Shown here: positions 3,498-51,817 of the stretch, in pieces
Numbering within the stretch: the stretch's first letter is position 1
Layout: every line of letters begins with the position of its first letter
Assembly: GCF_000411555.1 (NCBI RefSeq)
Contig: NZ_KE150486.1
Coordinates: 1,240,001 to 1,304,000 of the forward strand
Direction: 5' to 3'
DNA: 64,000 bases
DNA from: Atopobium sp. oral taxon 199 str. F0494
GTDB lineage: Bacteria > Actinomycetota > Coriobacteriia > Coriobacteriales > Atopobiaceae
Notes under the pieces: generated by a model
Told to the model about the DNA's origin: nothing
Database searches by the model: none
The model's input: only the letters and a program-made list of their open reading frames with translations
Translations under genes and position numbers: made by a program

Positions 3498-3520
3498 GGC
3501 TGCTCTGACTTCAGTAAATT

Positions 3521-6942: not shown

Positions 6943-6960
6943 ATCTGCCCCCCATATCCA

Positions 6961-7142: not shown

Positions 7143-7146
7143 TAAA

Positions 7147-12122: not shown

Positions 12123-12259
12123 ATCAAGACTACCTGATGATAACTATACACAAGACAGGAGCTTAATATTTCTCGCGCAAAGCTAATATCCATAGAAAAT
12201 GATGTCTTAAAACTAATGTCAAAGTCTTTAAACATATGAAAAGCCTTATATACAAGAAT

Positions 12260-12958: not shown

Positions 12959-13016
12959 TATATTTACCTTCATAAGTTCCGATTTATTTTACGCAGCACA
13001 AACTATCTACATAAAT

Positions 13017-13523: not shown

Positions 13524-13602
13524 AAAACCCTCTCCTTCTTAAATTCTATTCTTTCTTGCCATGTACTCTGCTTAAAACTTTGGAAAATCAAAGTACATAA
13601 AC

Positions 13603-14142: not shown

Positions 14143-14143
14143 T

Positions 14144-14887
14144 TTATTCTTGCAAAAATATTTTCAGCTTCTCCGCATATTCTTTCGGATGCTCGTGCAA
14201 AAATTGTCCATGTCCCATGTTTTCAAAAACTTCGCTTGCCATTTGCGGCAGATATTCTTTCAATTTCTTTTCACCCTTAGCCGGAATAAGCTCTTCACTT
14301 CCACGCCAAAATAAGACCGGATTAGAAAATTTTTTTAAATTTTCAGGTATCTTATAATGATAAAGATATTGACAAGCATTCTGAATTGTTTTTTTACGAA
14401 TATGCGTATACATCATTTCAATCAAGCTATGGTTATCTTTTCCCATCATCTTATTCAGCAAAAACCGAGGTATTGGTTTCCCATGCCTGATTCTACTTGT
14501 TCCGATCATAAAAACCCATTGAAACGGCAACGCCATAAGTCCCATTTCAATGACAATTGCCGCATCCAACAATACCTTTTCAACAGAGATGTTTCCTCGT
14601 GCAATCAACTCAACCGCCATGGTAGCCCCCATGGAAAAACCACAAAGACCATATACCTTCCCGTTCATTTCCTCTTGCATGTAATTTTCTATATCATCGA
14701 TACTATCTTTTAGCGATAACATATCATCCGGTTTGGAGGCACAATGTCCATCCAGTTCACAAAGAACGATATAATAATCCTGTAAATAAGACAGAAGCGA
14801 TTCAAAGCATAACTTCGCCGTAGAAGCAAGTCCGTGAATAAATAACAGGGACTTGTTTTTCTTATTTCCATATGTAATATAGTTCAT
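14144..14887 (-). CDS. Alpha/beta hydrolase, element cargo
   Basis: 247 residues from ATG 14887, preceded by AAGGAG about 10 bases upstream (GTG 14893 is an alternative). The fold is shown by SLLFIHGLAST (oxyanion region), the nucleophile elbow GFSMGA with Ser85, and GHGQFL near 232 for the His. GSEELIP offers an acidic residue in place of the usual Asp. Cytoplasmic. Codon use and low GC match the rest of the element, not the backbone. It is the first full gene of the element after the rlmD extension and likely heads the cargo operon. Substrate unknown. Confidence 0.8.
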   Translation of the reverse strand: MNYITYGNKKNKSLLFIHGLASTAKLCFESLLSYLQDYYIVLCELDGHCASKPDDMLSLKDSIDDIENYMQEEMNGKVYGLCGFSMGATMAVELIARGNISVEKVLLDAAIVIEMGLMALPFQWVFMIGTSRIRHGKPIPRFLLNKMMGKDNHSLIEMMYTHIRKKTIQNACQYLYHYKIPENLKKFSNPVLFWRGSEELIPAKGEKKLKEYLPQMASEVFENMGHGQFLHEHPKEYAEKLKIFLQE

Positions 14888-15025
14888 GTGCACTAAGCTC
14901 CTTAAAACGATATTTAAAGCAGGAAAATCGTTGTGCTATTCAAGCATATTTTTCCAATCGGTTTTTACTTCTCTATACAACATGGAAAAGCGGGTAATTT
15001 TTAACTTGAATTAGTACCTTTTCTA

Positions 15026-16504
15026 TTAAATCATCTTAAAATGCCTTAAAGCATCAATAATAGCATCTTCCTTTTCCAGTGTGCATTGTGGAATAACCTG
15101 TTTCTCTTTTTTTGATTTATTATAATGCTCCCTCAGTACAATTCCACACTTCTTTTTAATCTGTGCAATATAGAGTGTCGAAACCTTTAAATCAAATTTT
15201 TCCAATATATATTCCTTGATTTGTGCATAAGTCGCTTTACTTTCAGCACTTGTCAAATCAAGCTCATCAAGTTTAATTTCAACATCTATATGCTTATCGA
15301 CATCGAGTTTGGACAAAAGTGCTACCGTCTCCACATGTTTGGTGTGCGGGAACATGTCCACAGGTGTTATACGCTCCAGCCTGTACCCGCCGGCGAGAAG
15401 AACCTCCAGGTCGCGAGCTTGCGTTACAACGTTGCACGATACGTATACCACCCGCTTTGGCGCCAGCTGCCCAATCGCTTTCAGAAAGGTTGGCGTGGAA
15501 CCTGCGCGTGGCGGATCAAGAACAACAACATCATAAGAAGCTCCGCGCTGAGCCTTCTTCGCAATGAAGCGCGTGGCATCGTCACAGATAAATCGTGCAG
15601 AAAGGGTGTTGGCGTGGGCGTTTCTCTTGGCCATGGCAATGTTATTTTCAACTTGGTCAACTCCGGTGAGTTCGGTGGAAATGTCGTTCAAACCGGCCTC
15701 TTTAGCTGCGCAGATGCCGATGGTGCCGGTACCGCAATAGGCATCGAGGACGCGAAGGACGCTGCGGTTGCCGTGGCTCTTCTCGCGCAATCCAACTCCT
15801 TCAAGCGCCAGTTGATAGAGGACCTCGGTCTGCTCGGGGTTAGTTTGATAGAAACTCGTGGGTCCAATCTCAAACATGCAGTTTAAGAGCTTATCGTGCA
15901 TGGTTTCTGAACCCGCGAGCACACGAGTGGCTCGCCCTAAAATAGCGTTTGTGCGTCTTTGGTTACTGTTGAGAACGATGCCGGTTAGCTCGGGGTGAAG
16001 TGTTTGAAGTGCGGATACAAACTCTCGCTCGTGAGGAAGGCGCTGACCGTTGGCGACAAGCGTTAAAAGCATCTCGTCCGTGGCGTATCCCGTGCGTATG
16101 ACGGCATGGCGAAGCGTTCCTCGGTTGCGGTCTTCATCGTAGGCAGGTACCTTAAAACGGGCGGCCAGCCGGGCGACGTCGTTTAAGATTTCGCGCGCTC
16201 GTGGATCCTCCGCTAAGCAGGCTTCACACGCCACAATGCGATGCGTTCCCGCGCTGTAAAAGCCCGAGCGCACAGACCTGCCCCGTCCCGGCGCAAAAGG
16301 AGTGGTGGCTTTATGCCTGAACGCGAGCGGTTCTTTCATACCGCGAATGTCTTCTACAGAAATGCCGAACTTCTCGCCAAGAGGACCAAGCAGCTCAACT
16401 ACCTGCTGCTGTTTGCGTTGTAGCTGGATAGGATAGGGAACCGACAACCACTCGCAGCCTCCGCAGGTGCGGGCAACAGGGCATGTAGGGGTGCGATATC
16501 CCAT
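15026..16504 (-). CDS. rlmD: 23S rRNA (uracil-C5) methyltransferase RlmD/RumA type, with element-derived C-terminal extension
   Basis: 492 residues from ATG 16504, with GGAGAGG before it. It transfers a methyl group from SAM to a uracil of 23S rRNA. Visible features are Fe-S cysteines in CPVARTCGGC near the start and CEACL; the SAM-binding DAYCGTGTIG; the DPPRAG loop; and the catalytic Cys in VYVSCNVVTQARDL. Up to HVETVALLS (about residue 398) it is GC-rich backbone. The remaining ~94 residues (KLDVDKHIDVEI to HFKMI) are AT-rich and supplied by the integrated element; this tail resembles extensions on Firmicutes homologues. The original end, RTDG-stop, lies displaced at 12080. The enzyme probably still works, since the catalytic domain is complete. 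Confidence 0.9.
   Translation of the reverse strand: MGYRTPTCPVARTCGGCEWLSVPYPIQLQRKQQQVVELLGPLGEKFGISVEDIRGMKEPLAFRHKATTPFAPGRGRSVRSGFYSAGTHRIVACEACLAEDPRAREILNDVARLAARFKVPAYDEDRNRGTLRHAVIRTGYATDEMLLTLVANGQRLPHEREFVSALQTLHPELTGIVLNSNQRRTNAILGRATRVLAGSETMHDKLLNCMFEIGPTSFYQTNPEQTEVLYQLALEGVGLREKSHGNRSVLRVLDAYCGTGTIGICAAKEAGLNDISTELTGVDQVENNIAMAKRNAHANTLSARFICDDATRFIAKKAQRGASYDVVVLDPPRAGSTPTFLKAIGQLAPKRVVYVSCNVVTQARDLEVLLAGGYRLERITPVDMFPHTKHVETVALLSKLDVDKHIDVEIKLDELDLTSAESKATYAQIKEYILEKFDLKVSTLYIAQIKKKCGIVLREHYNKSKKEKQVIPQCTLEKEDAIIDALRHFKMI
15321..15338. repeat. Right attachment site copy (18-bp direct repeat) inside rlmD
   Basis: Identical to 12105-12122. Left of it on the plus strand the sequence is AT-rich element DNA; right of it is the GC-rich rlmD core. 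The composition break coincides with the repeat. Confidence 0.9.
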
Positions 16505-16741
16505 GGAGATCCTCTCCAAATGTGTCAGATTGATTGCAACATGGCAAACTCTGCGAATTTGTCTGCAAAACATTGTAGGCTATTGCGCAACAAGGCGCAG
16601 GTTGGCTACACGGTGAATTGCGACAGCGAATTTCGGCGCGAGAAAATCGCGGCAGCGAATCGCAGTACGAGAAAATCGTGGCGCTGGCTTTTTCGCAACC
16701 CGTTGGCGTCTGCGCAATGGGCACGAGTGAATGGAGAGCGT

Positions 16742-17710
16742 ATGGCACTTGTAAGTAAAATCGGCATCATCGGCGCTGGTCACGTTGGGGCGCATGTCGC
16801 AAACGCTCTGCTGTTTAAGGGTCTTGCAACCGAGCTGTACATCAGCGATATCGATGAGGTTCTCTGCAAAGCTCAGGTTAACGACTTGCTTGACGCTATG
16901 CCCTTCTACCCGCATCCCGCGCGCGTCTTTGAGGTGGATGCGCGCTACGAAGAACTTGCCGATTGCGACATTATCGTGAACGCAGCGGGTCATATCGAGG
17001 CTGCGGCGGCAAGTCGCGACGGCGAGCTTTTTGTGACCACCGATGAGGCGCGCAAGTTTGCAAAGCGCATCTCAGATGCGGGCTTCAACGGCGTATGGGT
17101 CAGCATCTCCAATCCCTGTGACGTTGTTTCTACTGAGATTCAGTATCTGACCGGCTGCGATCCCAAGAAGGTCATCGGTTCCGGCACTACGCTGGATTCT
17201 GCTCGTTTCCGTCATGCGCTTTCTAGGGCGACTGGTTATCCGGCAAGTTGCATCAACGCCTGGATGCTGGGCGAACACGGCAACGGCCAGTTTGCCCTGT
17301 GGTCCCATGTAACGTTTGGCTGCTTGACCGATAAAGAGATTGAAGACAGAACCGGCGTGAAATTTGACCGCGCTCAGCTTGAGCAGGACGCGCGTATGGG
17401 CGGCTACGTTACTTATAAGGGAAAACATTGCACCGAGTATTCCATCGCTAACGGTGCTGTTGAGGTTATCGGCGCTATCGTCAATGACACCAAGCTCATC
17501 ACTCCCGTATCTACGCTGCTTGACAGTGTGTATGGCGCGTCTGGATTCTACTCCTCACTTCCTGCGGTTATCGGCAAAGACGGTGTCGAGAAGGTCCTCG
17601 TGCCTGAGCTTTCCGAGGAGGAAATCGCGGCGTGGAAGAAGTCTTGCGAGCATGTTAAAGGAAACATTGACCAGCTTGAATGGCTGAAAGTTGACGCCCG
17701 CGTAGCATAG
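16742..17710 (+). CDS. L-2-hydroxyacid dehydrogenase of the LDH/L-hydroxyisocaproate dehydrogenase type
   Basis: 322 residues; ATG 16742 follows GGAGA, and an upstream extension of the frame is not protein-like. The NAD-binding GIIGAGHVGAHVA is at the N-terminus, NPCDVV in the middle, and the catalytic His in GEHGNGQF. The reaction is reversible reduction of a 2-keto acid with NADH. In the substrate loop after VNAAG the usual lactate-dehydrogenase GETR pattern is absent (HIEAAAASRDGELF). This and the overall layout are closer to L-2-hydroxyisocaproate dehydrogenase, so a branched or aromatic keto acid is plausible. It stands alone and ends in a clear terminator. Confidence 0.85.
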   Translation: MALVSKIGIIGAGHVGAHVANALLFKGLATELYISDIDEVLCKAQVNDLLDAMPFYPHPARVFEVDARYEELADCDIIVNAAGHIEAAAASRDGELFVTTDEARKFAKRISDAGFNGVWVSISNPCDVVSTEIQYLTGCDPKKVIGSGTTLDSARFRHALSRATGYPASCINAWMLGEHGNGQFALWSHVTFGCLTDKEIEDRTGVKFDRAQLEQDARMGGYVTYKGKHCTEYSIANGAVEVIGAIVNDTKLITPVSTLLDSVYGASGFYSSLPAVIGKDGVEKVLVPELSEEEIAAWKKSCEHVKGNIDQLEWLKVDARVA

Positions 17711-40210: not shown

Positions 40211-40262
40211 ACGTTGAGAGTCAGACGTTGAAGAGTAAGCGTTGAGAGCCGAACGTTGAGAG
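40211..40262 (+). repeat. Four short imperfect tandem repeats upstream of upp
   Basis: Units ACGTTGAGAGTCAG, ACGTTGAAGAGTAAG, GCGTTGAGAGCCGA and ACGTTGAGAG follow each other directly in the leader of upp. The last unit overlaps the GAGAGGA ribosome-binding site. Copy number could vary by slippage and alter spacing or translation of upp. Too short and spacer-less to be CRISPR. Confidence 0.7.
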
Positions 40263-40270
40263 GAAATCTA

Positions 40271-40915
40271 ATGGCAAAGTACGATGAAACTCGTTTATTT
40301 GTGATGGACCATCCGCTGGTGCAGCATAAGCTCCACATTCTCCGCGATAAGACGACTACAACCAAGCAGTTCCGCGAGCTCGTCAACGAGCTGGCTATCT
40401 TAGAGTCTTACGAGGCGATGCGTGATTTTCCGCTTGAAGACGTTGAGGTTGAGACTCCGCTTGAAACTATGACCGCAAAGCGTATCGCTGGCAAGAAGGT
40501 TGCGATCATCCCCATTCTCCGTGCGGGGCTGGGTATGGTTGACGGCGTGCTTGAGCTGGTTCCTTCTGCGCGCGTAGGTCATGTGGGCATGTATCGCGAT
40601 CCGGAGACGCATGAGCCCCATCAGTACTACTGCAAGTTTCCACCCGATGTGGAAAACCGTACCTGTCTCGTGGTTGACCCCATGTTGGCTACGGGCGGTT
40701 CTCTGACGGCCGCGATTCAATTTCTACGCGAAGCGGGCGTAAAGGACATTCGCTGTCTCACGATTGTGTCGTGCCCCGAAGGTGTAAAAGCCGTGCTTGA
40801 TTTTGATCCCAACGTCCGTCTGTATACGTGCACCGTGGATCGTCAGCTGGACGAGAGCGCCTATATTCTCCCGGGTCTTGGTGACGCTGGCGACAGAATC
40901 TATGGTACTAAGTAG
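40271..40915 (+). CDS. upp: Uracil phosphoribosyltransferase
   Basis: 214 residues from ATG 40271; the five upstream in-frame codons belong to the repeat leader. Features are PLVQHKLHILRDKTT, PILRAGLGMVDG, MYRDPETHEPHQYY, and the PRPP-binding VVDPMLATGGSLT. It makes UMP from uracil and PRPP in pyrimidine salvage. Transcription ends at the hairpin after 41020. Confidence 0.95.
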   Translation: MAKYDETRLFVMDHPLVQHKLHILRDKTTTTKQFRELVNELAILESYEAMRDFPLEDVEVETPLETMTAKRIAGKKVAIIPILRAGLGMVDGVLELVPSARVGHVGMYRDPETHEPHQYYCKFPPDVENRTCLVVDPMLATGGSLTAAIQFLREAGVKDIRCLTIVSCPEGVKAVLDFDPNVRLYTCTVDRQLDESAYILPGLGDAGDRIYGTK

Positions 40916-41080: not shown

Positions 41081-41196
41081 ATGTGACTAACAATTAGAAA
41101 TCTATATGAAAATATACAAGTAGTTGCAAAACTTTTGATGCGTGTATGCGGCCGAAGTGCGAGTGAAACAAGGTTATGTTTTGGGGAGTGGGTGTA

Positions 41197-41967
41197 ATGA
41201 TTTCTAATGTATCACGTGGCTTACAGCCGTCGGAGTGGGTCCGGATGGTTGGCAGAGGATCTCTCCAAGATTATCAGGATTGTTTTGCAAGGGATACGCA
41301 CATTCCTATCCACCTTATTGACCGCAAAGGCAATCCCTTGCTTATTCCTTCAAAAAAACTATTCTTTTGTGATTTCGTCAAGACAAGTATTGATCATGAT
41401 TGCAGCGGCGTTAACCGAATTAATATGGATGATGTTGCGGCTCACTATGACAAGACTCACAGTTTTGAGCCATTAGTGAAATGCTGTGATTTCGGTATTT
41501 CAAGTTTTGTGGCTCCTGTGTATTTTAATGGAGAACTCATGGGATTTTGGCATTGTCCTGGATTTACGTATGCAGATTCGCCTCACGCCAAGCAGCTTCA
41601 TGCCAAATTCGATCTTCCTATTCTTACTCATGCAGCATTTACGAGCGCTCTTTCCATGCTCATAATCATCTGTCGTTTGCTCGACATTCACCTTGATAAT
41701 GCGACCAAACTCTCTATGACAGAGCCTGCATCTGATCAGACTATTTCAAGTCAATTGACACGTCGTGAGAATGAGGTTGCCTCACTGGTGTGTTGCGGCA
41801 TGTCAAATGCTCAAATTGCAAAAAAGCTGTATGTAAGCGAGAAAACCATCAAAACGCATTTAAGTAATATTTTTTCAAAACTTGGTGTTCGCAATCGAGT
41901 ACAGCTTATCTGTGACTATTCTTCTGCTATGGACGCTGACGGTCATTCGGAACTGGAGGTGATGTAA
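41197..41967 (+). CDS. LuxR-type regulator with PocR-like sensory domain
   Basis: 256 residues from ATG 41197, with GGGGAG spaced 8 bases before it; ATG 41176 is poorer. The N-terminal ~150 residues are a PocR-like domain: PIHLIDRKGNPLL, conserved cysteines in FFCDF and KCCDFG, and SFVAPVYFNGELMGFWHCPGF. The domain binds small molecules such as diols or aromatics. The C-terminal HTH is LuxR-type (LTRRENEVASLVCCGMSNAQIAKKLYVSEKTIKTHLSNIFSKLG). The stop and the next gene's GTG are adjacent. It likely controls the decarboxylase locus, sensing its substrate; inferred from position. Confidence 0.8.
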   Translation: MISNVSRGLQPSEWVRMVGRGSLQDYQDCFARDTHIPIHLIDRKGNPLLIPSKKLFFCDFVKTSIDHDCSGVNRINMDDVAAHYDKTHSFEPLVKCCDFGISSFVAPVYFNGELMGFWHCPGFTYADSPHAKQLHAKFDLPILTHAAFTSALSMLIIICRLLDIHLDNATKLSMTEPASDQTISSQLTRRENEVASLVCCGMSNAQIAKKLYVSEKTIKTHLSNIFSKLGVRNRVQLICDYSSAMDADGHSELEVM

Positions 41968-42882
41968 GTGCGTACTCCGCGTATTTTATTTGTATGTGTT
42001 GATCCCGATGCGAGAAACAACTTTAAGCAAGAGCTCTCACATTATGGCTATGATGTTGTTCTTTGCTATCGCGGAGAAGAGGCATTGAGAATTATAGAAA
42101 AAAACACCGTTGATGTGCTTGTTTTCTCACTTGAGCTTCAGGATATGAATGGTTTTGAGGCCTGCCGTCTGGTTCGTCTCAAGTATGATTTTCTCGCGTA
42201 TCCTATTGTGGTTCATGCCTTGAGAGATTCCGCAGAGTTGCGTTTAGCCGCCTTTAGAGCTGGAGCCAATATCTTTACCTTTGAACCTGTGAAGTTTGAC
42301 CGCCTACACTATGTTCTTTCACTGCTGGTTAGCGGACGTCGCCGGTATAAAAGAAGTGTTCCCGCTGAAGATTTTTTAAGAATCGTCGATAGAGAGTACT
42401 GCGCGTCAAGAGAGATAGATGATTTTATTACTACCGATAAGGGAAGTTTGCGAAAGTCCGATATTCTCCGTTGGGCCGGTATCCTTTCTAAGGAGAGCGG
42501 GATTGCGGAGGAACAGCGAGCCATTGTGCATGAAATGATTAACTATACCCTTGACCTGCTCGCAACGTATGGCTCCATTGCAGAAGTGCTTGAACACCTT
42601 AATGAAATGTGGGCCGGAACAAGCATTTGGATTGAATTCAAAAAGCTTTTTGAATATGGGCATGGAAATTTTCATCTGGATGCTAAAAGCACCCACACCA
42701 CTGATGGCATTACGGCGCTTATGTTGCTGCTTTGCTCATATCTGCTTTCTGGTCAAACACCGATGGAAGCTATTTCTGCCCTATATGAGATCGAAACAAT
42801 AAACGCCGATGAGGTGGATGTGCTCAATCGCGTTATTACCGCGGATTCCTTTATGAATCGCGTTTTTAACCAAGGCGTATGA
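41968..42882 (+). CDS. Pseudo-receiver domain regulator
   Basis: 304 residues from GTG 41968, directly after the LuxR gene's TAA. Residues 1-~125 have a response-regulator receiver fold (RILFVCVDPDARNNF; GYDVVLCYRGEEAL). The phosphoacceptor Asp is replaced by Ser54 (VLVFSLELQDMNG), and the conserved Lys region reads FTFEPVKF, with Glu in place of Lys. It should therefore not be phosphorylated in the usual way. The C-terminal ~170 residues are helical with no recognised DNA-binding domain. It probably works with the LuxR/PocR protein. It converges on the activase gene five bases away. Confidence 0.7.
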   Translation: MRTPRILFVCVDPDARNNFKQELSHYGYDVVLCYRGEEALRIIEKNTVDVLVFSLELQDMNGFEACRLVRLKYDFLAYPIVVHALRDSAELRLAAFRAGANIFTFEPVKFDRLHYVLSLLVSGRRRYKRSVPAEDFLRIVDREYCASREIDDFITTDKGSLRKSDILRWAGILSKESGIAEEQRAIVHEMINYTLDLLATYGSIAEVLEHLNEMWAGTSIWIEFKKLFEYGHGNFHLDAKSTHTTDGITALMLLLCSYLLSGQTPMEAISALYEIETINADEVDVLNRVITADSFMNRVFNQGV

Positions 42883-42887
42883 TGACA

Positions 42888-43880
42888 CTAGAATGGCGTA
42901 TCGCTTCCCAGGTAGCATTTGATATTTCTATCGAGAAGAACTTTCTGGAGTTTGGCTAGTGTATGAGGAGGAGTTGGCTGCTCGTTCTTGAATGCATAAT
43001 CCATACTGAGCTCTTCCCATTTTGATACACCAAGACGATGGAAGGGCAAGAGATTGAATTCGTCAAGGCCTATCTCGTTCATAAAATCAGCGACTTTGGA
43101 GAAGTTTTCTTTGGAGTCATTGAGCCCTGGAATAACGGGAGCGCGAAGGATAAGCCGTGTGTGATTTCCGGAGTTTGCGAAAGCGCGGATATTATTGAGG
43201 ATGCGCTCATTTCCAACTCCTGTATAGGCTCGGTGAAGCTCAGAATCCATGCATTTTAGGTCATTGAATGCAAAGTCCATATAGCGCATGATGCGCAGAT
43301 ACGTAGGAGTATCAGCAAGAGCCTCCGTTTCAATTGCTTTATGAATGTATAGTTCATCACACCTTGCGAGAACCGCTTCAAGGAATTCCGGCTGGAACAT
43401 TGGGTCGCCACCAGAGAAGGTTACACCGCCGTTACCTGACCAATAGTGACGATCTCGCTCAAGGATGTACATTATTTCTTCGACAGTATATTCCTTTGAG
43501 ATTCTTACGAGTGCGTCATCAAAACACGCGTCGATGCACTCGAGCGTCGTACAAGTATGACAAAGTTCCCAATCAAATTTCATGGGGTGCTCAGGGTCCT
43601 GTGAATTGTCATGTACCGCTCCGTAGGGACATGCATTTGTGCATCGAGTGCAGGGCTTGCTTGCCGTATTGATACATTTTGAACCCATGTAGAGCTTACC
43701 CTGGCGATTATAGAAACTTTCCGGATTGCAGCACCAAGAGCAGCGCAAAGGACAGCCTGACATAAAGATGAGAGTTCGGCAGCCCGGTCCGTCATGGACA
43801 CTGAACGACTGAATATCAAAAATGCGTCCTTTAAGGTCTTTTTGCTCGTGAGCTATGGGAGCAGACAAACTCCTTCTCAT
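42888..43880 (-). CDS. hpdA: Glycyl-radical enzyme activase (arylacetate decarboxylase activating enzyme)
   Basis: 330 residues; GGGAGG before ATG 43880. This is a radical SAM activase: IQSFSVHDGPGCRTLIFMSGCPLRCSWCC contains CX3CX2C. Two ferredoxin-like cysteine groups follow (CINTASKPCTRCTNACPYGA; CHTCTTLECIDACFDDAL), then GGVTFSGGDPMFQPEF. It uses SAM and a reduced Fe-S cluster to install the glycyl radical on the decarboxylase large subunit. Divergent from hpdB across a regulatory region with two long inverted repeats. Assignment to the decarboxylase comes from position and the extra clusters. Confidence 0.9.
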   Translation of the reverse strand: MRRSLSAPIAHEQKDLKGRIFDIQSFSVHDGPGCRTLIFMSGCPLRCSWCCNPESFYNRQGKLYMGSKCINTASKPCTRCTNACPYGAVHDNSQDPEHPMKFDWELCHTCTTLECIDACFDDALVRISKEYTVEEIMYILERDRHYWSGNGGVTFSGGDPMFQPEFLEAVLARCDELYIHKAIETEALADTPTYLRIMRYMDFAFNDLKCMDSELHRAYTGVGNERILNNIRAFANSGNHTRLILRAPVIPGLNDSKENFSKVADFMNEIGLDEFNLLPFHRLGVSKWEELSMDYAFKNEQPTPPHTLAKLQKVLLDRNIKCYLGSDTPF

Positions 43881-43889
43881 ATATCCTCC

Positions 43890-44028
43890 CCTGATAATGC
43901 TTTCTAAAAGATTTAAAAAGCATTATCAGGAAAAGATTTTATGGATACGTACAGCGGAAGTCCTATCTATTCGCCTATTTCAAAACGGCGATATACGACT
44001 TTTAGGACCAGTAGTCTTAAAGTCGTAT
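43890..44028. promoter_or_regulatory. Two long inverted repeats in the hpdA-hpdB divergent promoter
   Basis: Repeat one: CCTGATAATGCTTT (43890-43903) against AAAGCATTATCAGG (43917-43930), perfect, 13-base loop, just upstream of the activase start. Repeat two: ATACGACTTT (43993-44002) against AAAGTCGTAT (44019-44028), with partial symmetry further in. They could be operators for the LuxR/PocR regulator, one for each direction, or leader hairpins. The 278-base region has no gene. Confidence 0.6.
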
Positions 44029-44158
44029 CTCTCTCAGAAAAAGATACAACTTTTTATTAGATATTTCGACCCATGTTTGGCGAAGCATTCTCATTAAAAA
44101 TTATCGCAATGGGCAGGCTAAGAGGGTCTGCCGCTGATGTTTTAAGGGAGGCTTGGAG

Positions 44159-46888
44159 ATGGCAACACTTCAACCGATGAAGCTGAGTGAAGTTCTCGCT
44201 GAGCGCGGGCTTTCTCTTGAAAGTCATGCAAACGGAGAGGCACCGGCTGAAATCACTGATCGAGAGATCAAGAGGGAGCCAACCCCGCGAGCTAACTACC
44301 TCCGTGATATTTACTTCGACACGCTCTCCTCGCTGGACATTCAGGAGTCCTACTGGTACTCCCGTGCAGCAGCCGAGCACGAGGGAGAAGTTCCTATCAT
44401 GCGGCGTGGTTATGCTTTGCAGAGCGTATTTGAACACCTTGATACGCCGATTTGGCCGCATGAGCAGCTCGTGGGTGCAAAAGCGGGGTTTTATCGCGGC
44501 TCTGCACCTCTGCCTTGGCTGACGGAAAGTTTCTTTATGGACAAAGATTCTGATTTGTACAAGGCAGCCCTTGACACGGGAGCCGAATCCAGCGCAGAGG
44601 TTTCTCACTTTGGCGCGGGTGGCGGCAACGTTACGCAGAGCTTCGGAAACGTTGTTTCTGTTGGTGGTAAGTATGGCGTACGCCTTGAAAACGTTCCTGC
44701 GATGCATCGTCTTGCGTATTCTTGGGCCGGCAAGTCAGTTGAAGATGTCGCTCGTAAGTATGAGCAGATGGTTCCTGAATACAAGATCAAAGAGAACATC
44801 ATGAAGTCCGTTGTCAGTAACTTTGACTCCGGTTTCACCATTCCTCAGGGCCGCGAAGTTATGAATTACTACTTTGTACTTGAGCATGGATTCGATGAGC
44901 TCATTGATATTTGCAAGAAACGTGCCGGTGAGGTAGCTGGTGAGCCAGGTGGCGATGGTATTGCCGGTATGGACAGGCTGTATTATTACACTGCTATGGG
45001 CTTGTTGGTTCAAGGTCTTTCCAAGTGGTTTGACAATTACGGAAAAGAAGCCGATCGCCTTATTTCTATTACCACTGACGAAACCGAAATTGCTGAGCTG
45101 AAGGAAATTTCCGAGCGCCTGCATCGGTTGGCACATGAGAAGCCAAAGACATTTAAAGACGCTTTCCAGACCATTTATCTTTTGCATTTGGCAGAACTCA
45201 ATGAAGATGCAATGTCCGGCCTTTCTCCTGGTCGTATAGGACAAGTTCTCTACCCCTATTTTGAACAGGATATTGAAAACGGCACTCTTACTGAGGAAGA
45301 GGTCGAAGAATGGCAAGAGCTGTATCGCGTTAAGATGACCTGCATCGATGCTTTTGCCTGTACCGGTGTTGTCGGAGGTGTCCTTTCGGGCAATACATTC
45401 AACAATGTCTGTATCGGTGGTGTTGATCGCGACGGCAAGTCCGCAGCAAACCGTCTTGAGATGATTATGCTCGACGCGGGTATTAACTGCCAGACCACCC
45501 AGCCGACTCTTTCACTGTTGTATGACGAGGCGAACCCCGAAGAGTTCGTCATGAAGTGCATGGAATGTGTAAAGACAGGCGCTGGTTATCCTGCAATTAT
45601 GAACAACCGCGTAGCAATGGAATTCTTACTGAACCAGTATGCTCACGAAGGCATGACGGTTCAAGAGGCGCGCGCATGGTCAGTTGGCGGCTGTCTTGAG
45701 ACTTCTCCCGGAACTTGGATGCCGCTTCACCTGAACGGCAAACTTTACTGGATTCCTGGCGGATCTGCACAGCCGACTTCAGTTGGTATTCACTTCCTAA
45801 ACAATCCAAAGATTCTTGAACTTGCGCTCAATAACGGTCTTGATAAGCGCACGGGACTTCAGGTCTTCCCACCACACGATAAGTCCTTCGAGACGTTCGA
45901 AGAGCTGGATGAGCAGTACAAAGTGTATTACCAGAAGGCTTGTGAAGTTCTGAATAAGTGCATGAACATCCAGCATGATGTCTGGCGTAAGTTCACCCCG
46001 TCCATGGTCAATTCACTGCTTAAACCGAATTGTCTCGAGAAGGGTCTCGGTATTGCGCACAAGGGCTACCGCTACAATTCGACGTTTAATATCGAGTGCT
46101 GCGGAACGTGCAATCAGATTAATTCTATGGCAGCCATTAAAAAGCTCGTGTACGAAGATAAGAAGTACACGCTTGAACAGCTTAAGGATGCGCTTGACAA
46201 CAACTTCGGCTATAAAACCTCTAAGGAAGTTGGTTCCGAATCTTTGAAAGATCAGGAAAAGCGCACAGATGACGACGGTCGTTACGATGAGATTCATGCG
46301 GATTGTCTGCGCGCTCCGAAGTATGGCAATGATGACCCATATGTTGATCAGATGCTCTATGACTGGGAGCAGTGGTTCTGCAACGATTTGCCGGCAACTA
46401 TTGAGAATCTCTATGGTGAGCCGTATTACGTCTGTCAGATGTCCGTATCAACTCACGGTCCCGAGGGCGCAGTTACTGCCGCTACCGCCGACGGTCGTCT
46501 CCAAGGCACCACTTTTGCCGACGCTTCGATGTCCGCTTATCCAGGTACGGATACTCATGGACAGTATGCACTTTTTGAATCAGCGACCGGCTGGGATCAC
46601 TCTATGTCCCAGAACAGCCAGATGAATCTCAAGCTTCATCCGAGCGCCGCGAAAGGCATTGAGGGCTCAAGGAAACTGATGGATCTTACTCGCGCATACA
46701 TGCGTAAGGGAGGCTTCCATATCCAGTACAACATTATTGACTCTCGCATACTTAAAAAGGCACAGGCGAACCCCGAGAATTACCGTACGCTGCTCATTCG
46801 TGTTGCAGGATTCACACAATATTGGGTTGAGATTGGCAAGCCAATTCAGGATGAGGTAATTGCTCGTACCGAGTATGAATCCATTTAA
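44159..46888 (+). CDS. hpdB: Glycyl-radical arylacetate decarboxylase, large subunit (4-hydroxyphenylacetate decarboxylase type)
   Basis: 909 residues from ATG 44159 (AGGGAGG upstream; the TTG six bases earlier is less likely). Pyruvate-formate-lyase-like fold with the catalytic Cys512 in SVGGCLETSPG and the radical Gly884 in RVAGFTQYW near the C-terminus. It removes CO2 from an aromatic acetate; with 4-hydroxyphenylacetate the product is p-cresol. Presence of a small subunit gene points to this type rather than indoleacetate decarboxylase, a related enzyme known from Olsenella. The glycine loop RVAGF(T/S) matches the family; specificity remains an inference. Oxygen-sensitive; implies strict anaerobic growth. 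Confidence 0.9.
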   Translation: MATLQPMKLSEVLAERGLSLESHANGEAPAEITDREIKREPTPRANYLRDIYFDTLSSLDIQESYWYSRAAAEHEGEVPIMRRGYALQSVFEHLDTPIWPHEQLVGAKAGFYRGSAPLPWLTESFFMDKDSDLYKAALDTGAESSAEVSHFGAGGGNVTQSFGNVVSVGGKYGVRLENVPAMHRLAYSWAGKSVEDVARKYEQMVPEYKIKENIMKSVVSNFDSGFTIPQGREVMNYYFVLEHGFDELIDICKKRAGEVAGEPGGDGIAGMDRLYYYTAMGLLVQGLSKWFDNYGKEADRLISITTDETEIAELKEISERLHRLAHEKPKTFKDAFQTIYLLHLAELNEDAMSGLSPGRIGQVLYPYFEQDIENGTLTEEEVEEWQELYRVKMTCIDAFACTGVVGGVLSGNTFNNVCIGGVDRDGKSAANRLEMIMLDAGINCQTTQPTLSLLYDEANPEEFVMKCMECVKTGAGYPAIMNNRVAMEFLLNQYAHEGMTVQEARAWSVGGCLETSPGTWMPLHLNGKLYWIPGGSAQPTSVGIHFLNNPKILELALNNGLDKRTGLQVFPPHDKSFETFEELDEQYKVYYQKACEVLNKCMNIQHDVWRKFTPSMVNSLLKPNCLEKGLGIAHKGYRYNSTFNIECCGTCNQINSMAAIKKLVYEDKKYTLEQLKDALDNNFGYKTSKEVGSESLKDQEKRTDDDGRYDEIHADCLRAPKYGNDDPYVDQMLYDWEQWFCNDLPATIENLYGEPYYVCQMSVSTHGPEGAVTAATADGRLQGTTFADASMSAYPGTDTHGQYALFESATGWDHSMSQNSQMNLKLHPSAAKGIEGSRKLMDLTRAYMRKGGFHIQYNIIDSRILKKAQANPENYRTLLIRVAGFTQYWVEIGKPIQDEVIARTEYESI

Positions 46889-46914
46889 CTTCAGGTAATT
46901 GAAAGGAGACCCTT

Positions 46915-47190
46915 ATGTGTAAGTATCGCGATTGCGATTTCTATATTCCCATTGATGTCGTAAAGGGTATCGATCACGCTCACGGTGATGTTGTAGTAAT
47001 GGGCGATGAAGAAATTGCTGCTGTTGACTTTGTTCCCGCTCATAAGTGCAAGTTCTGTGCGCACTATAAAGAAACTGAGAGGAACATGGGAATATGTAGC
47101 GGATTTACAACCGAGTATTGGGCGTTTGCAGAGAACGGTGCTCGTAACTGCGAGGCGTTCGAGATGGCAAAGGACCTCGTTGAAGCGTAG
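46915..47190 (+). CDS. hpdC: Arylacetate decarboxylase small subunit
   Basis: 91 residues, 26 bases after hpdB, with GAAAGGAG before the ATG. The C-terminal half carries CX2C...C...C (Cys45, 48, 61, 79), matching the spacing of the second Fe-S cluster site of known 4-hydroxyphenylacetate decarboxylase small subunits. The N-terminal cluster site looks degenerate: apart from Cys7, the ligand positions of known subunits (a His near 4 and Cys near 20 and 34) are Tyr, Asp and Ala here. So probably only one cluster is bound. The subunit stabilises and regulates the enzyme. The comparison relies on memory of the Clostridioides protein. Confidence 0.85.
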   Translation: MCKYRDCDFYIPIDVVKGIDHAHGDVVVMGDEEIAAVDFVPAHKCKFCAHYKETERNMGICSGFTTEYWAFAENGARNCEAFEMAKDLVEA

Positions 47191-47218
47191 CACACGCTGA
47201 TTTTCCCTCCAAGGACGG

Positions 47219-47256
47219 CGCCCCGGGAACTCTCGCGGGTTTCTGGGGCGTTTTTT
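47219..47256 (+). terminator. Terminator after hpdC
   Basis: CGCCCC (47219-47224) pairs with GGGGCG (47245-47250) with further pairing inside the loop, followed by TTTTTT. It probably partly separates the decarboxylase from the transporter gene. Confidence 0.8.
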
Positions 47257-47283
47257 ATACATTGCAATGATTGGGGACATCTT

Positions 47284-48600
47284 ATGAAAGATGCTAAGTC
47301 AACCTCGCGTAAGGTAGTACTAGCAGCCTTCCTTGCGTGTTTCTGTCTTTTTGGTTTCCGTTCAACATTTTCTATCCTTCAGGTTCCTATGGGCAAAGAT
47401 CTCGGATGGACCGGATCACAACTATCTCTGGGCTATTCTCTTATGATGATGGTGTATGCGGTAACGGCTTTCTTTGCGGGTAAGATTGTTGATAAGAGTG
47501 GCTGCAGGCCGGTGTATTTTGCAGGTGCTGTATTTTGCTGTCTTGGTATGGTGGCTACTTCGTTTATTGATAATATTTATTTCTACTTCTTTAGCTACGG
47601 TGTTTTTGCAGGTATCGGCACCGGTATGCTGTGGGTATCTTCGACTACCTCATGTCGCAAGTGGTTTGTAGGTGACCGTTACTCCACGGCGTGGGGCATC
47701 GCTTTTGCTGGGGCTCCTATCGCTCAGGTATTGCTTACGCTTTTTATGAAGCCGTTCTTAGCTCAGAATGCATCCGCATGGCGCACTGTCATGTTGATTA
47801 TGGGCTTCGTCTTTCTTGCGCTTCTTTCGGTATCGGCTCTCGTCGCTCAACGAAACCCCAGTGATCTTGGCCTTGAACCGTTTGGAAAACTTCCGCAAAA
47901 GAAAAACGAGAAAACCCATGACTTCACGGTTGCAGAAGCATTTCATACGCGCGCTATGTGGTGTGATATTTTTGCGTTTCTCTTTGCAATGCTTGGTGAA
48001 TTTCTCATTTGGTCTCAAATTGTTAAATACTGGACGGTCAATCTGAATATGGATCTTGGTACTGCCTCCAACATGTATATTATCATCGGTGTCTGCGGAA
48101 TCTTTACGATGCCGCTTTTGGGTAAGGTTGCAGATCGTCTTGTAAAGTCAAGAGGAAATGAACCGGAAGCACGCCGCATCGTGCTTATTGCCGGTCCTAT
48201 CGTTGGCGCTATCGGGTGCGTTCTTCTCCTTATGATGAAGGCTGATCAGTTGTGGCTCGGCGCACTTTGTTGCGTATTGTTTGCCTGCTATTGGGCGGTT
48301 GAGCCAGGTGGATGCGCTGGATATGCCGGATCGGTTTTTGGTAATAAGTACTTTGGTAAAGTTTGGGGATTTGCTACGCTCATCGTTATGTTTGTTGGGC
48401 CGGCGACCGGTTCCTTTATGGGTGGATTTTTAGCCGATGTAACGGGCAACTATACTGCATCTGTCATTTTTGCTCTCTGCGGGTTTGTCCTTTCTGCACT
48501 TATGGCTCTGCTTCTTCCGAAGGAAGTCAAAGCTCCAACTCGTGCCCAAGAGGCGGGGGCTCATTGTCGGGAGCGGCAGACAATCTCTTCCGCACTCTAG
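47284..48600 (+). CDS. MFS transporter, probable aryl-acid uptake or cresol export
   Basis: 438 residues with about 12 hydrophobic segments in two halves. MFS motif A-like GKIVDKSGCRPVYFAGA lies between helices 2 and 3, and GKVADRLVKSRGNEPEARR in the second half. It is related to oxalate/formate-type and monocarboxylate-type MFS members. Position right after the decarboxylase suggests exchange of arylacetate and its decarboxylated product, or substrate uptake. The last ~20 residues are polar and irregular. A hairpin follows. Confidence 0.88.
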   Translation: MKDAKSTSRKVVLAAFLACFCLFGFRSTFSILQVPMGKDLGWTGSQLSLGYSLMMMVYAVTAFFAGKIVDKSGCRPVYFAGAVFCCLGMVATSFIDNIYFYFFSYGVFAGIGTGMLWVSSTTSCRKWFVGDRYSTAWGIAFAGAPIAQVLLTLFMKPFLAQNASAWRTVMLIMGFVFLALLSVSALVAQRNPSDLGLEPFGKLPQKKNEKTHDFTVAEAFHTRAMWCDIFAFLFAMLGEFLIWSQIVKYWTVNLNMDLGTASNMYIIIGVCGIFTMPLLGKVADRLVKSRGNEPEARRIVLIAGPIVGAIGCVLLLMMKADQLWLGALCCVLFACYWAVEPGGCAGYAGSVFGNKYFGKVWGFATLIVMFVGPATGSFMGGFLADVTGNYTASVIFALCGFVLSALMALLLPKEVKAPTRAQEAGAHCRERQTISSAL

Positions 48601-48612
48601 GTTTTTACCCGT

Positions 48613-48639
48613 GCGTAGGGGAAGAAACTTCCCCTACGC
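48613..48639 (+). terminator. Hairpin after the MFS gene
   Basis: GCGTAGGGGAAG (48613-48624) and CTTCCCCTACGC (48628-48639) form a perfect 12-bp stem with an AAA loop, 12 bases after the stop. No T-run; may attenuate transcription into the DUF4125 gene. Confidence 0.65.
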
Positions 48640-48662
48640 TCGTTGCGTGAGGAGCGTTGCAC

Positions 48663-49274
48663 ATGGCTTCGCTTGACCTTGTTGAAACCATTAGGCACTA
48701 CGAATATGAGGATTTTTCCTATGCTGTCAAAGAATGGTCGCCTCCCTATATTGGGTGTAACCTGAATTCATTTTTTACACGGATGCGAGGACCTCAGCTT
48801 ATGACTTGGAGCCTTGAAGTTCTTGAGTCATATTGCGCAGATCTTGAAAAAGCGAGGATGTATCATACGTCACTCTTTATTGAACGTTTTGTATATGTGT
48901 ATGGGTGTTCAAAAGAGGTGAGCCACCGGTATCGTTTTCCTATGAGGTCGTTGGAGTTTAAGAAGTATGTTGATTTCATTACAAAAATCTCCTTAATTTG
49001 GGAAACGCGCGCGAGGATGCAATTCCCGCTTTTTACAAAATGTATAGGGCCTCTTATTGTTGAAGAGGATACGCAAATGAGCCCGTCATACGAAGTACGT
49101 CTTCGAGCAGAACTCATGACATATTCCACCGAAACTATCCGTGCATATTTTGAGTTTGTTATGCAGTGTTGGGATGAGGGTTTTAACCCAAATATCCAAA
49201 CCTATCATGGCGTTGCGCGCGAGCTTGGTTTTCCAAGTGCGTCTGAGGCAGATCAGCTTGGAGCATCTCTATAG
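48663..49274 (+). CDS. DUF4125 family protein
   Basis: 203 residues from ATG 48663 (GAGGAG upstream). The DUF4125 pattern is visible: an N-terminal helix with Glu and Trp (YEYEDFSYAVKEW), RMRGPQLMTWSLEVLESYCADLEKA, and the later EVRLRAELMTYSTETIRAYFEFVMQCWDEG. The domain is of unknown function and tends to occur beside glycyl-radical loci and TPR or DUF4037 proteins. Here it pairs with a second copy at 50154. It may be a scaffold or chaperone for the decarboxylase; inference. Confidence 0.75.
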   Translation: MASLDLVETIRHYEYEDFSYAVKEWSPPYIGCNLNSFFTRMRGPQLMTWSLEVLESYCADLEKARMYHTSLFIERFVYVYGCSKEVSHRYRFPMRSLEFKKYVDFITKISLIWETRARMQFPLFTKCIGPLIVEEDTQMSPSYEVRLRAELMTYSTETIRAYFEFVMQCWDEGFNPNIQTYHGVARELGFPSASEADQLGASL

Positions 49275-49319
49275 CATTACCGCTCTTCTTGCTATGCGAG
49301 AGATTGGAGAGAAAAGACT

Positions 49320-50090
49320 ATGAACGGCAAGGATGTATTGGATGAGATTGACGAGGTTCTCAAATTCCATGCAGATAGTAAAGATAATGATGCCGCAATT
49401 TCTCTTATGAGGAGGAAGCTTTGTGAGATTGGTAGAGAGTATGGTGAAAAGAGCTCAGAATTTATCAGTGTTCTTAATGAGCTAGGAAGCATTGAGAGAG
49501 ATGCCGGACTTTTAGATGAGTCGGCCAGCGATCTTCTTCGTGCCGTTGAGATTCAGATGGATGCAATACCGATTTTTCAAGACGACGATGGCTGTATGAG
49601 CGCTGGGTGCACGGCATGTTCATCGGTAAAGACTATGCCTACAAAGCATATTGATCCCGGACTGGCGGCTACACTCTGTAGTCTTGGAGGAACATACCGC
49701 CTGATGGGTGATTTCGGTCAGGCAGAGTATGCATTTATTATGGCTATTCAGATTTACGATGCAACAGTTGGGACAAAACACCCCTTATACGCGACGGTTC
49801 TCAATGAACTTGCCTTGCTTCGCCAAAATCAGGGCCGCTACGGCGAGGCTATTGAACTGCACGATCGTGTCCAGACGATTATTGGTATGTCGGCGCATGC
49901 GGAGTATCGCGCGAATAATCTCTTTAACCGCGCTCTCTGCGAGTATTTGCGTCGAGGAGATTTTGGTCGCGCTTATCACGATGCCAAGGAGGCACTAGTT
50001 CTCTATACCGTTCATATGGGTGCCGATTCTTTACAGGCCTGTCGCGCACGCAAGATATATGAGCTCATCAGTGAAAGCTATGTGCATTGA
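49320..50090 (+). CDS. Tetratricopeptide-repeat protein between two DUF4125 genes
   Basis: 256 residues with TPR-like helical repeats (GSIERDAGLLDESASDLLRAVEIQ; LCSLGGTYRLMGDFGQAEYAFIMAIQIYD; LNELALLRQNQGRYGEAIELHDRVQTI; NRALCEYLRRGDFGRAYHDAKEAL), resembling the kinesin-light-chain type. An insertion between the first two repeats carries DDDGCMSAGCTACSSVK, a Cys-rich loop that could bind metal. TPRs mediate protein contacts. 45 bases after the first DUF4125 gene. Function likely tied to its neighbours. Confidence 0.8.
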   Translation: MNGKDVLDEIDEVLKFHADSKDNDAAISLMRRKLCEIGREYGEKSSEFISVLNELGSIERDAGLLDESASDLLRAVEIQMDAIPIFQDDDGCMSAGCTACSSVKTMPTKHIDPGLAATLCSLGGTYRLMGDFGQAEYAFIMAIQIYDATVGTKHPLYATVLNELALLRQNQGRYGEAIELHDRVQTIIGMSAHAEYRANNLFNRALCEYLRRGDFGRAYHDAKEALVLYTVHMGADSLQACRARKIYELISESYVH

Positions 50091-50153
50091 TAGCGAAGTG
50101 TCATAGGCAATGTGTTTCGTGAGCTTCCTTCATGCCGATTACTGGCAGAATAG

Positions 50154-50753
50154 GTGATCATTGTGAAAAGAGCTATAAAAGACCTATTAATTGGCGCCAT
50201 TGAGGAAATTGAGCGAAATATGCTTTTAAAGGCTGGCATTATCAAAAGCGAGCTGTTATATCAAACTGACTACAGACAAGCACTCCTTTTTCAACGGGCT
50301 TTATATATATCATGGCCGATTGAAGTGCTTGAAAGTTATAAGCTCGATCTTGAGCAAGCACAAAAGCATGGCAACAATCTTATGAGTGAGAAATATGCAC
50401 GAATGAGAGAAATAGCTTTACGGGAAGCATTGGAAATACCTCCATTGGATTTGCTGAATAAACGTCTCATAGAAGAAGCTGTGGACATACTGTTAGGGTG
50501 GGAAGCAAACTTGTGCGGACATTACCGATTACTGCAGGAGAAGGCAAGAAGTCTTCGCCAAAAGAATCTGGATGCCGCGTCAGTTCCCTTAGTTGCTTTG
50601 GATGTATACCTGTTTGGAGAGTTCTCAATTTACTCAGCACGTACACTTTCACTGTATCTCAAACATCTTATAATACAGGAACGACAGGATATCAATGGAA
50701 GTATGATGGTGTACGACAATATGAGCTATCTCCAAAGCTCGGTGGTCGTCTGA
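50154..50753 (+). CDS. Second DUF4125-like protein
   Basis: 199 residues from GTG 50154 (GTG 50163 is an alternative). The family-like core is ALLFQRALYISWPIEVLESYKLDLEQAQKHGNNLMSEKYARM, close to the other copy's MTWSLEVLESYCADLEKA, and the later SARTLSLYLKHLIIQERQDI. The N-terminal half is more diverged than in the first copy. The C-terminus (DNMSYLQSSVVV) is short. It ends the locus; the next 266 bases hold the promoter region of the ATP synthase operon. Confidence 0.65.
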   Translation: MIIVKRAIKDLLIGAIEEIERNMLLKAGIIKSELLYQTDYRQALLFQRALYISWPIEVLESYKLDLEQAQKHGNNLMSEKYARMREIALREALEIPPLDLLNKRLIEEAVDILLGWEANLCGHYRLLQEKARSLRQKNLDAASVPLVALDVYLFGEFSIYSARTLSLYLKHLIIQERQDINGSMMVYDNMSYLQSSVVV

Positions 50754-51019: not shown

Positions 51020-51817
51020 GTGAATCCGCTATCTCAGCTGCCTGAAAAGATGGACGAGCTGCTTGACAGCTTTATGACTCATCCTCTTGTTGGCAGTACG
51101 ACTGTTGGTTTTACCAACTACATCTTTTGGATGTGCGTAGCGCTTGTGCTGCTTATGGTCGTCATGTTCATCTTTGTCCAGAAGCAGAAAAGATCCCTTG
51201 TTCCGCAAGGCATCTTTGTGAACTCCATTGAGTATCTCGTTGAGTTTATCCGCGATGATATGGTCAAAGGGCTTCTCGGAGATACATGGAAGAAGCATTT
51301 TTCTTTCTTGGCGTCGTTGTTTCTCTTCATCCTGGCGAACAACATTGTCGGCATTATTCCCGGCTGCCATCCCGGCACCGGTACCATTGGCGTAACGGCT
51401 GCGCTGGCTTTGTGCTCCTTTGTCTATTTTATCGTGGTTGGCGTCAGGCGTATGGGGCCTCTCGGATATATCAAGAGCCTTGCGCCGGAAGGCGTCAATC
51501 CCTTCATGGGAGCAATGGTCTGGGTCATTGAGCTCTTCTCGACCTTCCTGCGCCTCATCACTCTTGCAGTCCGACTTTTCTGTAACATGCTCGCAGGCCA
51601 TGTTGTTATGGGCGTCTTTGCGATTCTGGTCTCCCTCTTTATGGGTCCTATTCTGCAAGGATTTTCGGCGACTGCATTTGCCCAAGCCGGAGCATCTGCT
51701 TTTTGGTTGCTTATCCTCATTGTGATTTACGCTGTCGAGCTTTTGGTCGGCGTCATTCAAGCATATGTGTTTACCTTGCTCTCATCTGTCTACATTCAGC
51801 TTGTAGAGAGTGAGTAA
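51020..51817 (+). CDS. atpB: ATP synthase F0 subunit a
   Basis: 265 residues from GTG 51020 (GGAAAGGAAGAGAG upstream). Integral membrane protein with five to six helices; the essential Arg is in LAVRLFCNMLAGHVV, and the C-terminus ends in IQAYVFTLLSSVYI. With the c-ring it forms the ion path of F0. It opens the operon atpB-E-F-H-A-G-D-C; an atpI gene is absent. Confidence 0.95.
   Translation: MNPLSQLPEKMDELLDSFMTHPLVGSTTVGFTNYIFWMCVALVLLMVVMFIFVQKQKRSLVPQGIFVNSIEYLVEFIRDDMVKGLLGDTWKKHFSFLASLFLFILANNIVGIIPGCHPGTGTIGVTAALALCSFVYFIVVGVRRMGPLGYIKSLAPEGVNPFMGAMVWVIELFSTFLRLITLAVRLFCNMLAGHVVMGVFAILVSLFMGPILQGFSATAFAQAGASAFWLLILIVIYAVELLVGVIQAYVFTLLSSVYIQLVESE

Follow-up and report, generated by a model that had tools for sequence, protein, structure and literature searches.

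A 64,000-nucleotide stretch of the Atopobium sp. oral taxon 199 str. F0494 genome (contig NZ_KE150486.1, positions 1,240,001–1,304,000; hereafter the window, in whose coordinates positions are given) carries a cassette for 4-hydroxyphenylacetate decarboxylase (HPAD), a glycyl radical enzyme (GRE), which ends in two genes for DUF4125 proteins on either side of a gene for a tetratricopeptide repeat (TPR) protein. As judged from family assignments, these last genes derive from a conserved triad of TPR, DUF4037 (a predicted nucleotidyltransferase) and DUF4125, which occurs split or fused in several phyla. We tentatively propose that the triad is a control module, so far unrecognised, that acts in anaerobic catabolism by nucleotidyl transfer and was repeatedly recruited by glycyl-radical operons that form p-cresol, skatole or trimethylamine. 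DUF4125 would in this case serve the transferase as its dedicated partner, and the window lineage would have lost the transferase and retained the partner and the scaffold. For the window genes themselves, descent from a module for control or docking whose transferase disappeared in this lineage comes close to an even call, and a regulatory or adaptor role is our best guess for the DUF4125 and TPR proteins. The locus comprises the following features.

40256..40915, + strand: upp (uracil phosphoribosyltransferase), left flank; TIGR01091, 276 bits (cut-off 208)
41176..41967, + strand: PocR-domain LuxR-type regulator; PF10114, 47.3 bits (cut-off 23.9), and PF00196, 71 bits
41968..42882, + strand: pseudo-receiver protein, REC domain and a C-terminal part of ~180 amino acids; PF00072, 49.6 bits
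42888..43880, − strand: HPAD activase HpdA, radical SAM protein; NF033717, 505 bits (cut-off 420), CX3CX2C motif present
44153..46888, + strand: HPAD large subunit HpdB, glycyl radical enzyme; NF033715, 1661 bits (cut-off 1150)
46915..47190, + strand: HPAD small subunit HpdC; NF033716, 102 bits (cut-off 50)
47284..48600, + strand: major facilitator superfamily (MFS) transporter, probable arylacetate uptake; PF07690, 138 bits (cut-off 33.4)
48657..49274, + strand: DUF4125 a; PF13526, 99.7 bits (cut-off 25)
49320..50090, + strand: TPR protein; TPR_12, 66.7 bits (cut-off 30.1), clusters with TPR proteins of triad loci
50154..50753, + strand: DUF4125 b; PF13526, 105 bits (cut-off 25)
51020..51817, + strand: atpB (ATP synthase subunit a), right flank; open reading frame (ORF) with homologues in 79 of 81 family genomes

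Each of the nine genes between the flanks exceeds the cut-off of a curated Pfam or NCBIfam family, in agreement with the first-pass annotation of this DNA, which had placed all nine here; the PocR–LuxR gene that it began at 41197 does lie there, although that position is the second possible ATG, the first being at 41176. The right-flank ORF, which has no NCBIfam match at 1e-50, we take to be atpB from recognition of its sequence. DUF4125 a, the TPR gene and DUF4125 b follow the MFS gene on the same strand, with successive gaps of 56, 45 and 63 base pairs (bp). Terminator-like sites are commoner than expected (17 versus 9.6), and the longest, a hairpin with a 16-pair stem at 47217–47252, separates the small-subunit and MFS genes, so that MFS, DUF4125 a, TPR and DUF4125 b may form a transcript of their own; promoter-like sites are not enriched (14 versus 16.9 expected in shuffled sequence).

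The triad was delineated by surveying DUF4125 and DUF4037 in 246 genomes of the class Coriobacteriia. DUF4125 occurs at 28 places in 23 genomes, and all 19 genomes with a strong DUF4037 match (at least 94 bits) also encode DUF4125. The four genomes with DUF4125 and no strong DUF4037 are all HPAD-linked: the window genome (G000), a second genome of the same species (G054), a congener (G173) and G156, which lies outside the genus. Beyond the class, we analysed the best 80 of at least 530 named DUF4125 loci, ordered by their similarity to the HPAD-linked copy of E. sinensis; by label these span Bacillota, Thermodesulfobacteriota, Chloroflexota, Actinomycetota, Spirochaetota, Pseudomonadota and others, and many are short contigs. 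Of the 80, 59 have DUF4037 and 58 have TPR; 54 have both and 17 have neither, and 14 are single-chain TPR–DUF4037–DUF4125 fusions. A candidate rule that DUF4125 always needs DUF4037, which holds in the 246 Coriobacteriia bar the degenerate HPAD-linked copies, failed outside the class and was rejected. In an alignment of 74 DUF4037 sequences, which include repeats such as the E. sinensis locus (L079 and G052 are one and the same), G33, G36, G38, S39, G43, D45, D46, S49, D51 and H52 are present in 74/74 and D53 in 73/74; we take these positions to be a nucleotidyltransferase-type motif. A survey of HEPN proteins groups DUF4037 with the C-terminal domains of aminoglycoside nucleotidyltransferases and mentions TPR fusions, in the portion of the article available (PMC3710099).

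Set against this definition, the window holds DUF4125, in two copies above the cut-off, beside a TPR protein of the same family. DUF4037 was not found in the locus; the sole match in the genome is weak (27.5 bits) and lies ~46 kb away in another nucleotidyltransferase, one of the Pol-beta type encoded at positions 2688–3641 (− strand) of the window and outside any triad. By its gene content, the window block is therefore a DUF4037-less derivative of the triad and not a full member.

The family lies near glycyl radical enzymes far more often than expected. In the Coriobacteriia, 22 of the 28 DUF4125 places are within 10 kb of a Gly_radical domain, against an expectation of ~1.2 that takes domain numbers and genome sizes into account, and the neighbours include HPAD, indoleacetate decarboxylase (IAD), CutC and others; one further place is 66 kb from such a domain, and five have none on the contig. 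The GRE profile was run on six-frame segments, and gene clusters were re-scored with profiles. In the 80-locus set, a GRE is present in 17 loci, versus 1.5 expected (19 of the genomes, ~63 Mb, hold 81 Gly_radical matches), and an activase in three more. CutC occurs in 12 of the 246 coriobacterial genomes, 11 of which encode DUF4037 and DUF4125 (on the same contig in ten and on another contig in G205); G116 is the CutC genome with neither. A TPR gene stands beside DUF4037/DUF4125 in eight of the nine CutC loci read. In eight CutC loci (L170–L175, L068 and L071), the DUF4037–DUF4125 genes follow cutC on its strand at a distance of ~9 kb, and in seven of the eight a TPR gene comes before them (none was found in L071).

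HPAD itself was found at 12 loci in 11 of the 246 coriobacterial genomes, counts that are lower bounds, as the best three first-look candidates per genome (two in the clostridia) were scored. Six of the 12 loci contain DUF4125 (G000, G054, G173, G156, G052 and G200), and contig 17 of G175, another genome outside the genus, would be a seventh, since the MFS gene is interrupted at both contig ends and DUF4125 comes next. TPR without DUF4125 is found beside HPAD in G124 and G160, the congener G066 has an HPAD locus with neither, and the loci in G133 and the second locus in G175 are cut by a contig end. In E. sinensis and Rubneribacter, HPAD is followed immediately by the full triad, and a metagenome-assembled genome (MAG) of Peptococcaceae, G250, has DUF4125 beside HPAD (1582 bits). 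IAD loci with at least one triad component occur in G124 (DUF4037 and DUF4125), G160 (TPR; 1768 bits), G249 and G250 (DUF4125 in both). The Rubneribacter and G250 HPAD cases and the G249 and G250 IAD cases were reached via DUF4125 and are hence biased. The first-pass annotation would have been refuted had DUF4125 and TPR genes failed to accompany the decarboxylase in other genomes, and the survey shows that they do accompany it (DUF4125 in six or seven of 12 coriobacterial HPAD loci, and triad genes in four IAD loci). In the class of Drancourtella, HPAD was found in four of 391 genomes, again a lower bound, and triad genes in none of the four within the 19.5 kb fetched for each. An Actinomycetaceae MAG, L133, carries at 14879–17554 (− strand) a GRE that scores 940 bits against the HPAD model and 817 bits against the IAD model, under both cut-offs, together with MFS, activase and the full triad; this GRE is possibly an arylacetate decarboxylase of other specificity.

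The two DUF4125 genes of the window have different nearest relatives, which speaks against treating DUF4125–TPR–DUF4125 as a single unit, as had been done at first. In the DUF4125 tree, DUF4125 a groups with the HPAD-locus copies of G173, G156 and G175, and then with the full-triad copy of G160, which places it in the HPAD-cassette lineage. The best match of DUF4125 b outside the species is the copy in the IAD island of G124 (44% identity, 159 bits; next 102), to which it is sister in a quick tree (SH-aLRT 99), and both stand directly before atpB. DUF4125 b is thus probably a decaying relic of an IAD-type island that once occupied the upp–atpB junction. Among the loci compared, the TPR protein has no close relative outside the genus, the best reaching 33%.

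The genomic setting of the cassette identifies it as an island inserted between upp, which ends at 40915, and atpB, which starts at 51020. We compared this junction in 31 loci, namely 30 atpB loci drawn from the 79 family genomes that carry atpB (81 searched; we take the family to be Atopobiaceae) and that of the congener G080. The upp and atpB matches are 458–1235 bp apart in 23 of the 31, four contain an island between them (G000, G054, G173 and G124), and in the remaining four upp lay outside the fetched flank. The HPAD island of G066, read separately, is also at upp–atpB. The nearest HPAD cassettes outside the genus, in G156 and G175 (86–87% identity in the large subunit), lie elsewhere in genomes where upp and atpB are adjacent. 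In G124 (L066), an IAD island (1766 bits) fills the same junction, from upp at 3478–4116 to atpB at 15567, in the order upp, IAD, MFS, activase, LuxR-type regulator, histidine kinase, receiver, DUF4037, DUF4125, atpB. One junction is thus used by two different arylacetate decarboxylase islands.

Selection on the block was assessed from the ratio of nonsynonymous to synonymous substitution rates (dN/dS) between G000 and G173, which is 0.008 for the large subunit, 0.030 for the activase, 0.019 for the pseudo-receiver, 0.026 for the MFS protein, 0.076 for DUF4125 a and 0.150 for TPR (dS 0.67–1.13 over the compared genes). Between G000 and G054, codon changes in the block are ten nonsynonymous and four synonymous, versus five and 19 in the PocR-to-MFS genes (Fisher p 0.005), with four and one in DUF4125 b. 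From these ratios and the small within-species counts, DUF4125 a and TPR are constrained, less so than the enzyme, and selection on DUF4125 b seems relaxed. If the block were a decaying, functionless passenger left by island turnover at upp–atpB, the mostly nonsynonymous changes within the species would be expected. So would the reduction of DUF4125 b in G173 to ~130 bp of recognisable DNA similarity, our failure to find any part of the block in G066, and the loss of about half of the conserved family positions in both DUF4125 proteins: of 31 positions conserved in at least 90% of 74 other members, DUF4125 a retains 14 and DUF4125 b 16, versus 26–31 in the 25 other members listed. However, dN/dS against G173 is still low for DUF4125 a and TPR, the three block genes match G054 over essentially their full length without gaps, and DUF4125 a likewise stands behind the MFS gene in G156 and, across a contig break, apparently in G175, in both cases away from upp–atpB. 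We regard the passenger account as doubtful; together with the maturation account considered below, it is the chief competitor of our reading.

The DUF4125 a model is all-helical (pLDDT 89.8), and comparison of the DUF4125 model with the PDB gave no credible match (best Foldseek E value 1.2, best VIA-align Z score 3.1), which is no proof of a new fold. A natural TPR–DUF4037–DUF4125 fusion was modelled with a pLDDT of 91.8 and a pTM of 0.65; the listed matches in a fold search concern essentially its TPR part, which resembles the superhelices of kinesin light chain/LGN and of the Rap/PlcR type. Judging from several titles of the matched structures, Rap and PlcR bind signal peptides, and the likeness fits a sensing or docking role of TPR and proves neither.

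Taken together, these results suggest the following model. The MFS protein would take up arylacetate and the PocR–LuxR regulator would sense it; the activase would generate the glycyl radical, and HPAD would convert 4-hydroxyphenylacetate to p-cresol and CO2. Where complete, the triad would act as a control module in which DUF4037 moves a nucleotidyl group onto a protein or small molecule, TPR holds the target and DUF4125 serves as the dedicated partner of DUF4037, so tuning inducible anaerobic catabolic operons, above all glycyl-radical ones. In the window lineage, the enzymatic part would have been lost, with DUF4125 a and TPR persisting under purifying selection as a binding or adaptor pair and DUF4125 b left over from an IAD-type island formerly at the same junction.

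Several observations weigh against this model. No GRE or activase lies in the DNA examined, which is often short, for 60 of the 80 DUF4125 loci, and the GRE share of that set may be inflated by its ranking on the HPAD-linked E. sinensis copy. In 35 triad loci without a GRE, no dominant neighbour family emerged, the most frequent accounting for five of 126 proteins (126 of 136 listed were scanned, called by a simple ORF caller that is error-prone in GC-rich DNA). The CutC copies form one clade in the DUF4125 tree, in which the HPAD and IAD copies need five changes, so that the counts are not independent events and, by this tree, the CutC link is one association, not nine. Ten of the 20 genomes in which DUF4125 lacks an adjacent DUF4037 have no DUF4037 at all at 1e-12, many of them being incomplete MAGs; canonical DUF4125 thus occurs without DUF4037 and may have a role of its own. 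Within the window, the placement of DUF4125 b needs care because of its long branch in the quick tree (1.57), dS against G173 is near saturation (~0.9–1.1), and within the species DUF4125 a and TPR show little constraint (two nonsynonymous and one synonymous change, and four and two, respectively). Furthermore, the literature that names DUF4125 or DUF4037, as far as its available text goes and with subscription papers and preprints outside its scope, assigns neither a role. In the main text of a survey of microcompartment loci, DUF4125, DUF4037 and TPR were not found (PMC4207490).

Alternatively, the DUF4125 and TPR proteins might help to assemble, mature or repair the decarboxylase, acting in cluster loading, activase docking or protection of the radical enzyme. 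The closely spaced, co-directional arrangement behind the cassette MFS gene and the enrichment of the family beside several different GREs and their activases are in line with this, and TPR proteins often dock partners. By contrast, the HPAD cassette is kept without the block in G066 and none of the four clostridial HPAD loci has it, and therefore an obligatory role in maturation, a function that the first-pass annotation had mentioned as an example, is unlikely. Moreover, the block proteins evolve faster than the enzyme, the 60 loci described above have neither GRE nor activase nearby, and in the accessible text of PMC6181972 the purified activase of Olsenella scatoligenes IAD installed the radical on that enzyme in vitro. 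In its broader form, we consider the maturation account unlikely. A domesticated MNT/HEPN-like toxin–antitoxin or defence pair merely situated near catabolic genes, as the nucleotidyltransferase-type motif of DUF4037 and its placement in the HEPN survey might suggest, is quite improbable, since DUF4037 and DUF4125 accompany CutC in 11 of 12 genomes and are ordered inside HPAD and IAD loci, six triad proteins scanned with PADLOC gave no match beyond a general TPR model, and the Rx4-6H motif of the DUF4037-type domain is marked as not conserved in the portion of PMC3710099 available.

The enzyme of the cassette is identified as HPAD by its equivalog score and by its conserved active-site positions. 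The large subunit scores 667 bits against the IAD model NF033718, under the cut-off of 1100, versus 1661 bits against the HPAD model. In an alignment to the solved HPAD 2y8n_A (1017.7 bits), for which we assume the active-site residue numbers, Cys514, Glu516, His547, Glu648 and Gly886 of the window protein fall on active-site positions, with Cys514 corresponding to the thiyl cysteine, Glu516 to Glu1, Glu648 to the substrate-binding Glu2 and Gly886 to the radical glycine. Glu2 distinguishes HPAD from IAD, in which it is missing, according to the available text of PMC6181972. From the score and these residues, the expected product of 4-hydroxyphenylacetate is p-cresol; of the initial designation 'p-cresol or related', the first part would apply, and leaving the class open was unneeded. 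Another arylacetate decarboxylase, from O. scatoligenes, is cited in the accessible part of PMC13285125 (Lu 2021).

The dedicated small subunit retains the C-terminal cysteine quartet. The second, N-terminal Fe–S site, usual in HPAD small subunits and outside the curated definition, appears altered: the positions aligned with H3 and C19 of 2y8n_B, which with C36 are presumably cluster ligands, are Tyr and Asp, the C36 equivalent is not Cys, and Pfam 4HPAD_g_N scores 16.3, below its cut-off of 25. Four of 17 small subunits have no cysteine at the C19 and C36 equivalents (the window, L061 of G173, L062 of G066 and L067 of G124), and with these ligands missing they may hold one Fe–S cluster instead of two.

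PocR–LuxR homologues occur in HPAD and IAD loci of other genomes, and by its domains the window regulator is likely to be the ligand sensor of the cassette. Several related HPAD/IAD loci encode a LuxR-type regulator, a histidine kinase and a receiver; the kinase is of the Cache type in L066, L114 and L163, and in the clostridial L163 the receiver is fused to an HD domain. The kinase gene is missing between those for the regulator and the receiver protein in both the window and G156, and Ser replaces Asp in the receiver. As aligned, the phospho-acceptor is Asp in the receivers of four related loci and Ser in the window protein, and the name pseudo-receiver was therefore apt. Given the missing kinase gene and the substitution, phosphorylation signalling via the window receiver has probably been given up, with the PocR ligand sensor remaining. 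The possibility that the pseudo-receiver ends in a degenerate form of the HD domain seen in L163, making up its C-terminal half, gained no support from a profile comparison, which aligned the receiver part alone. The HPAD locus of L163, from the class of Drancourtella, encodes a PocR–LuxR protein, a Cache histidine kinase and a REC–HD response regulator, an arrangement that is possibly the ancestral form of the reduced regulators in the window.

The cassette resembles the HPAD cluster of O. scatoligenes in combining HPAD and its small subunit with activase and an MFS transporter. In that species, an MFS gene is part of the HPAD cluster and of the IAD cluster, with arylacetate uptake as the proposed function, and the available text names no DUF4125, TPR or DUF4037 in the HPAD cluster, whereas the window cassette ends in DUF4125–TPR–DUF4125 at upp–atpB (PMC6181972). 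The four clostridial hpd clusters have the same three HPAD proteins as the window, and L163 also shares PocR–LuxR and MFS; they differ in having no triad genes in the DNA fetched, and L163 in having its kinase and REC–HD protein where the window has no kinase gene and a pseudo-receiver. The IAD island of G124 shares the insertion point, a LuxR-type regulator, MFS, activase and a DUF4125 beside atpB, and differs in its GRE (IAD), its Cache histidine kinase, a receiver with the phospho-acceptor Asp, DUF4037 next to a canonical DUF4125, and a regulator in which Pfam finds no PocR domain. Further afield, LrcL (DUF4125) and LrcM (DUF4037) are expressed neighbours in the operon for limonene ring cleavage, an anaerobic catabolic one that comes after a BssE chaperone gene; pathway and phylum are different, and the text available assigns them no role (PMC12583861).

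p-Cresol, skatole and trimethylamine are gut products that affect host health, and glycyl radical enzymes form all of them. A module that accompanies HPAD, IAD and CutC operons in Coriobacteriia would offer a common handle on the three, and two Pfam families of no known function gain a concrete context that can be tested, as a predicted nucleotidyltransferase and its partner.

Elsewhere in the window, positions 4001–8000 and 12001–16000 have a G+C content of 0.36–0.42 and a negative GC skew reaching −0.25, versus a G+C content of 0.50–0.57 in the 2-kb steps across positions 16001–40000; the two low-G+C stretches are possible foreign segments.

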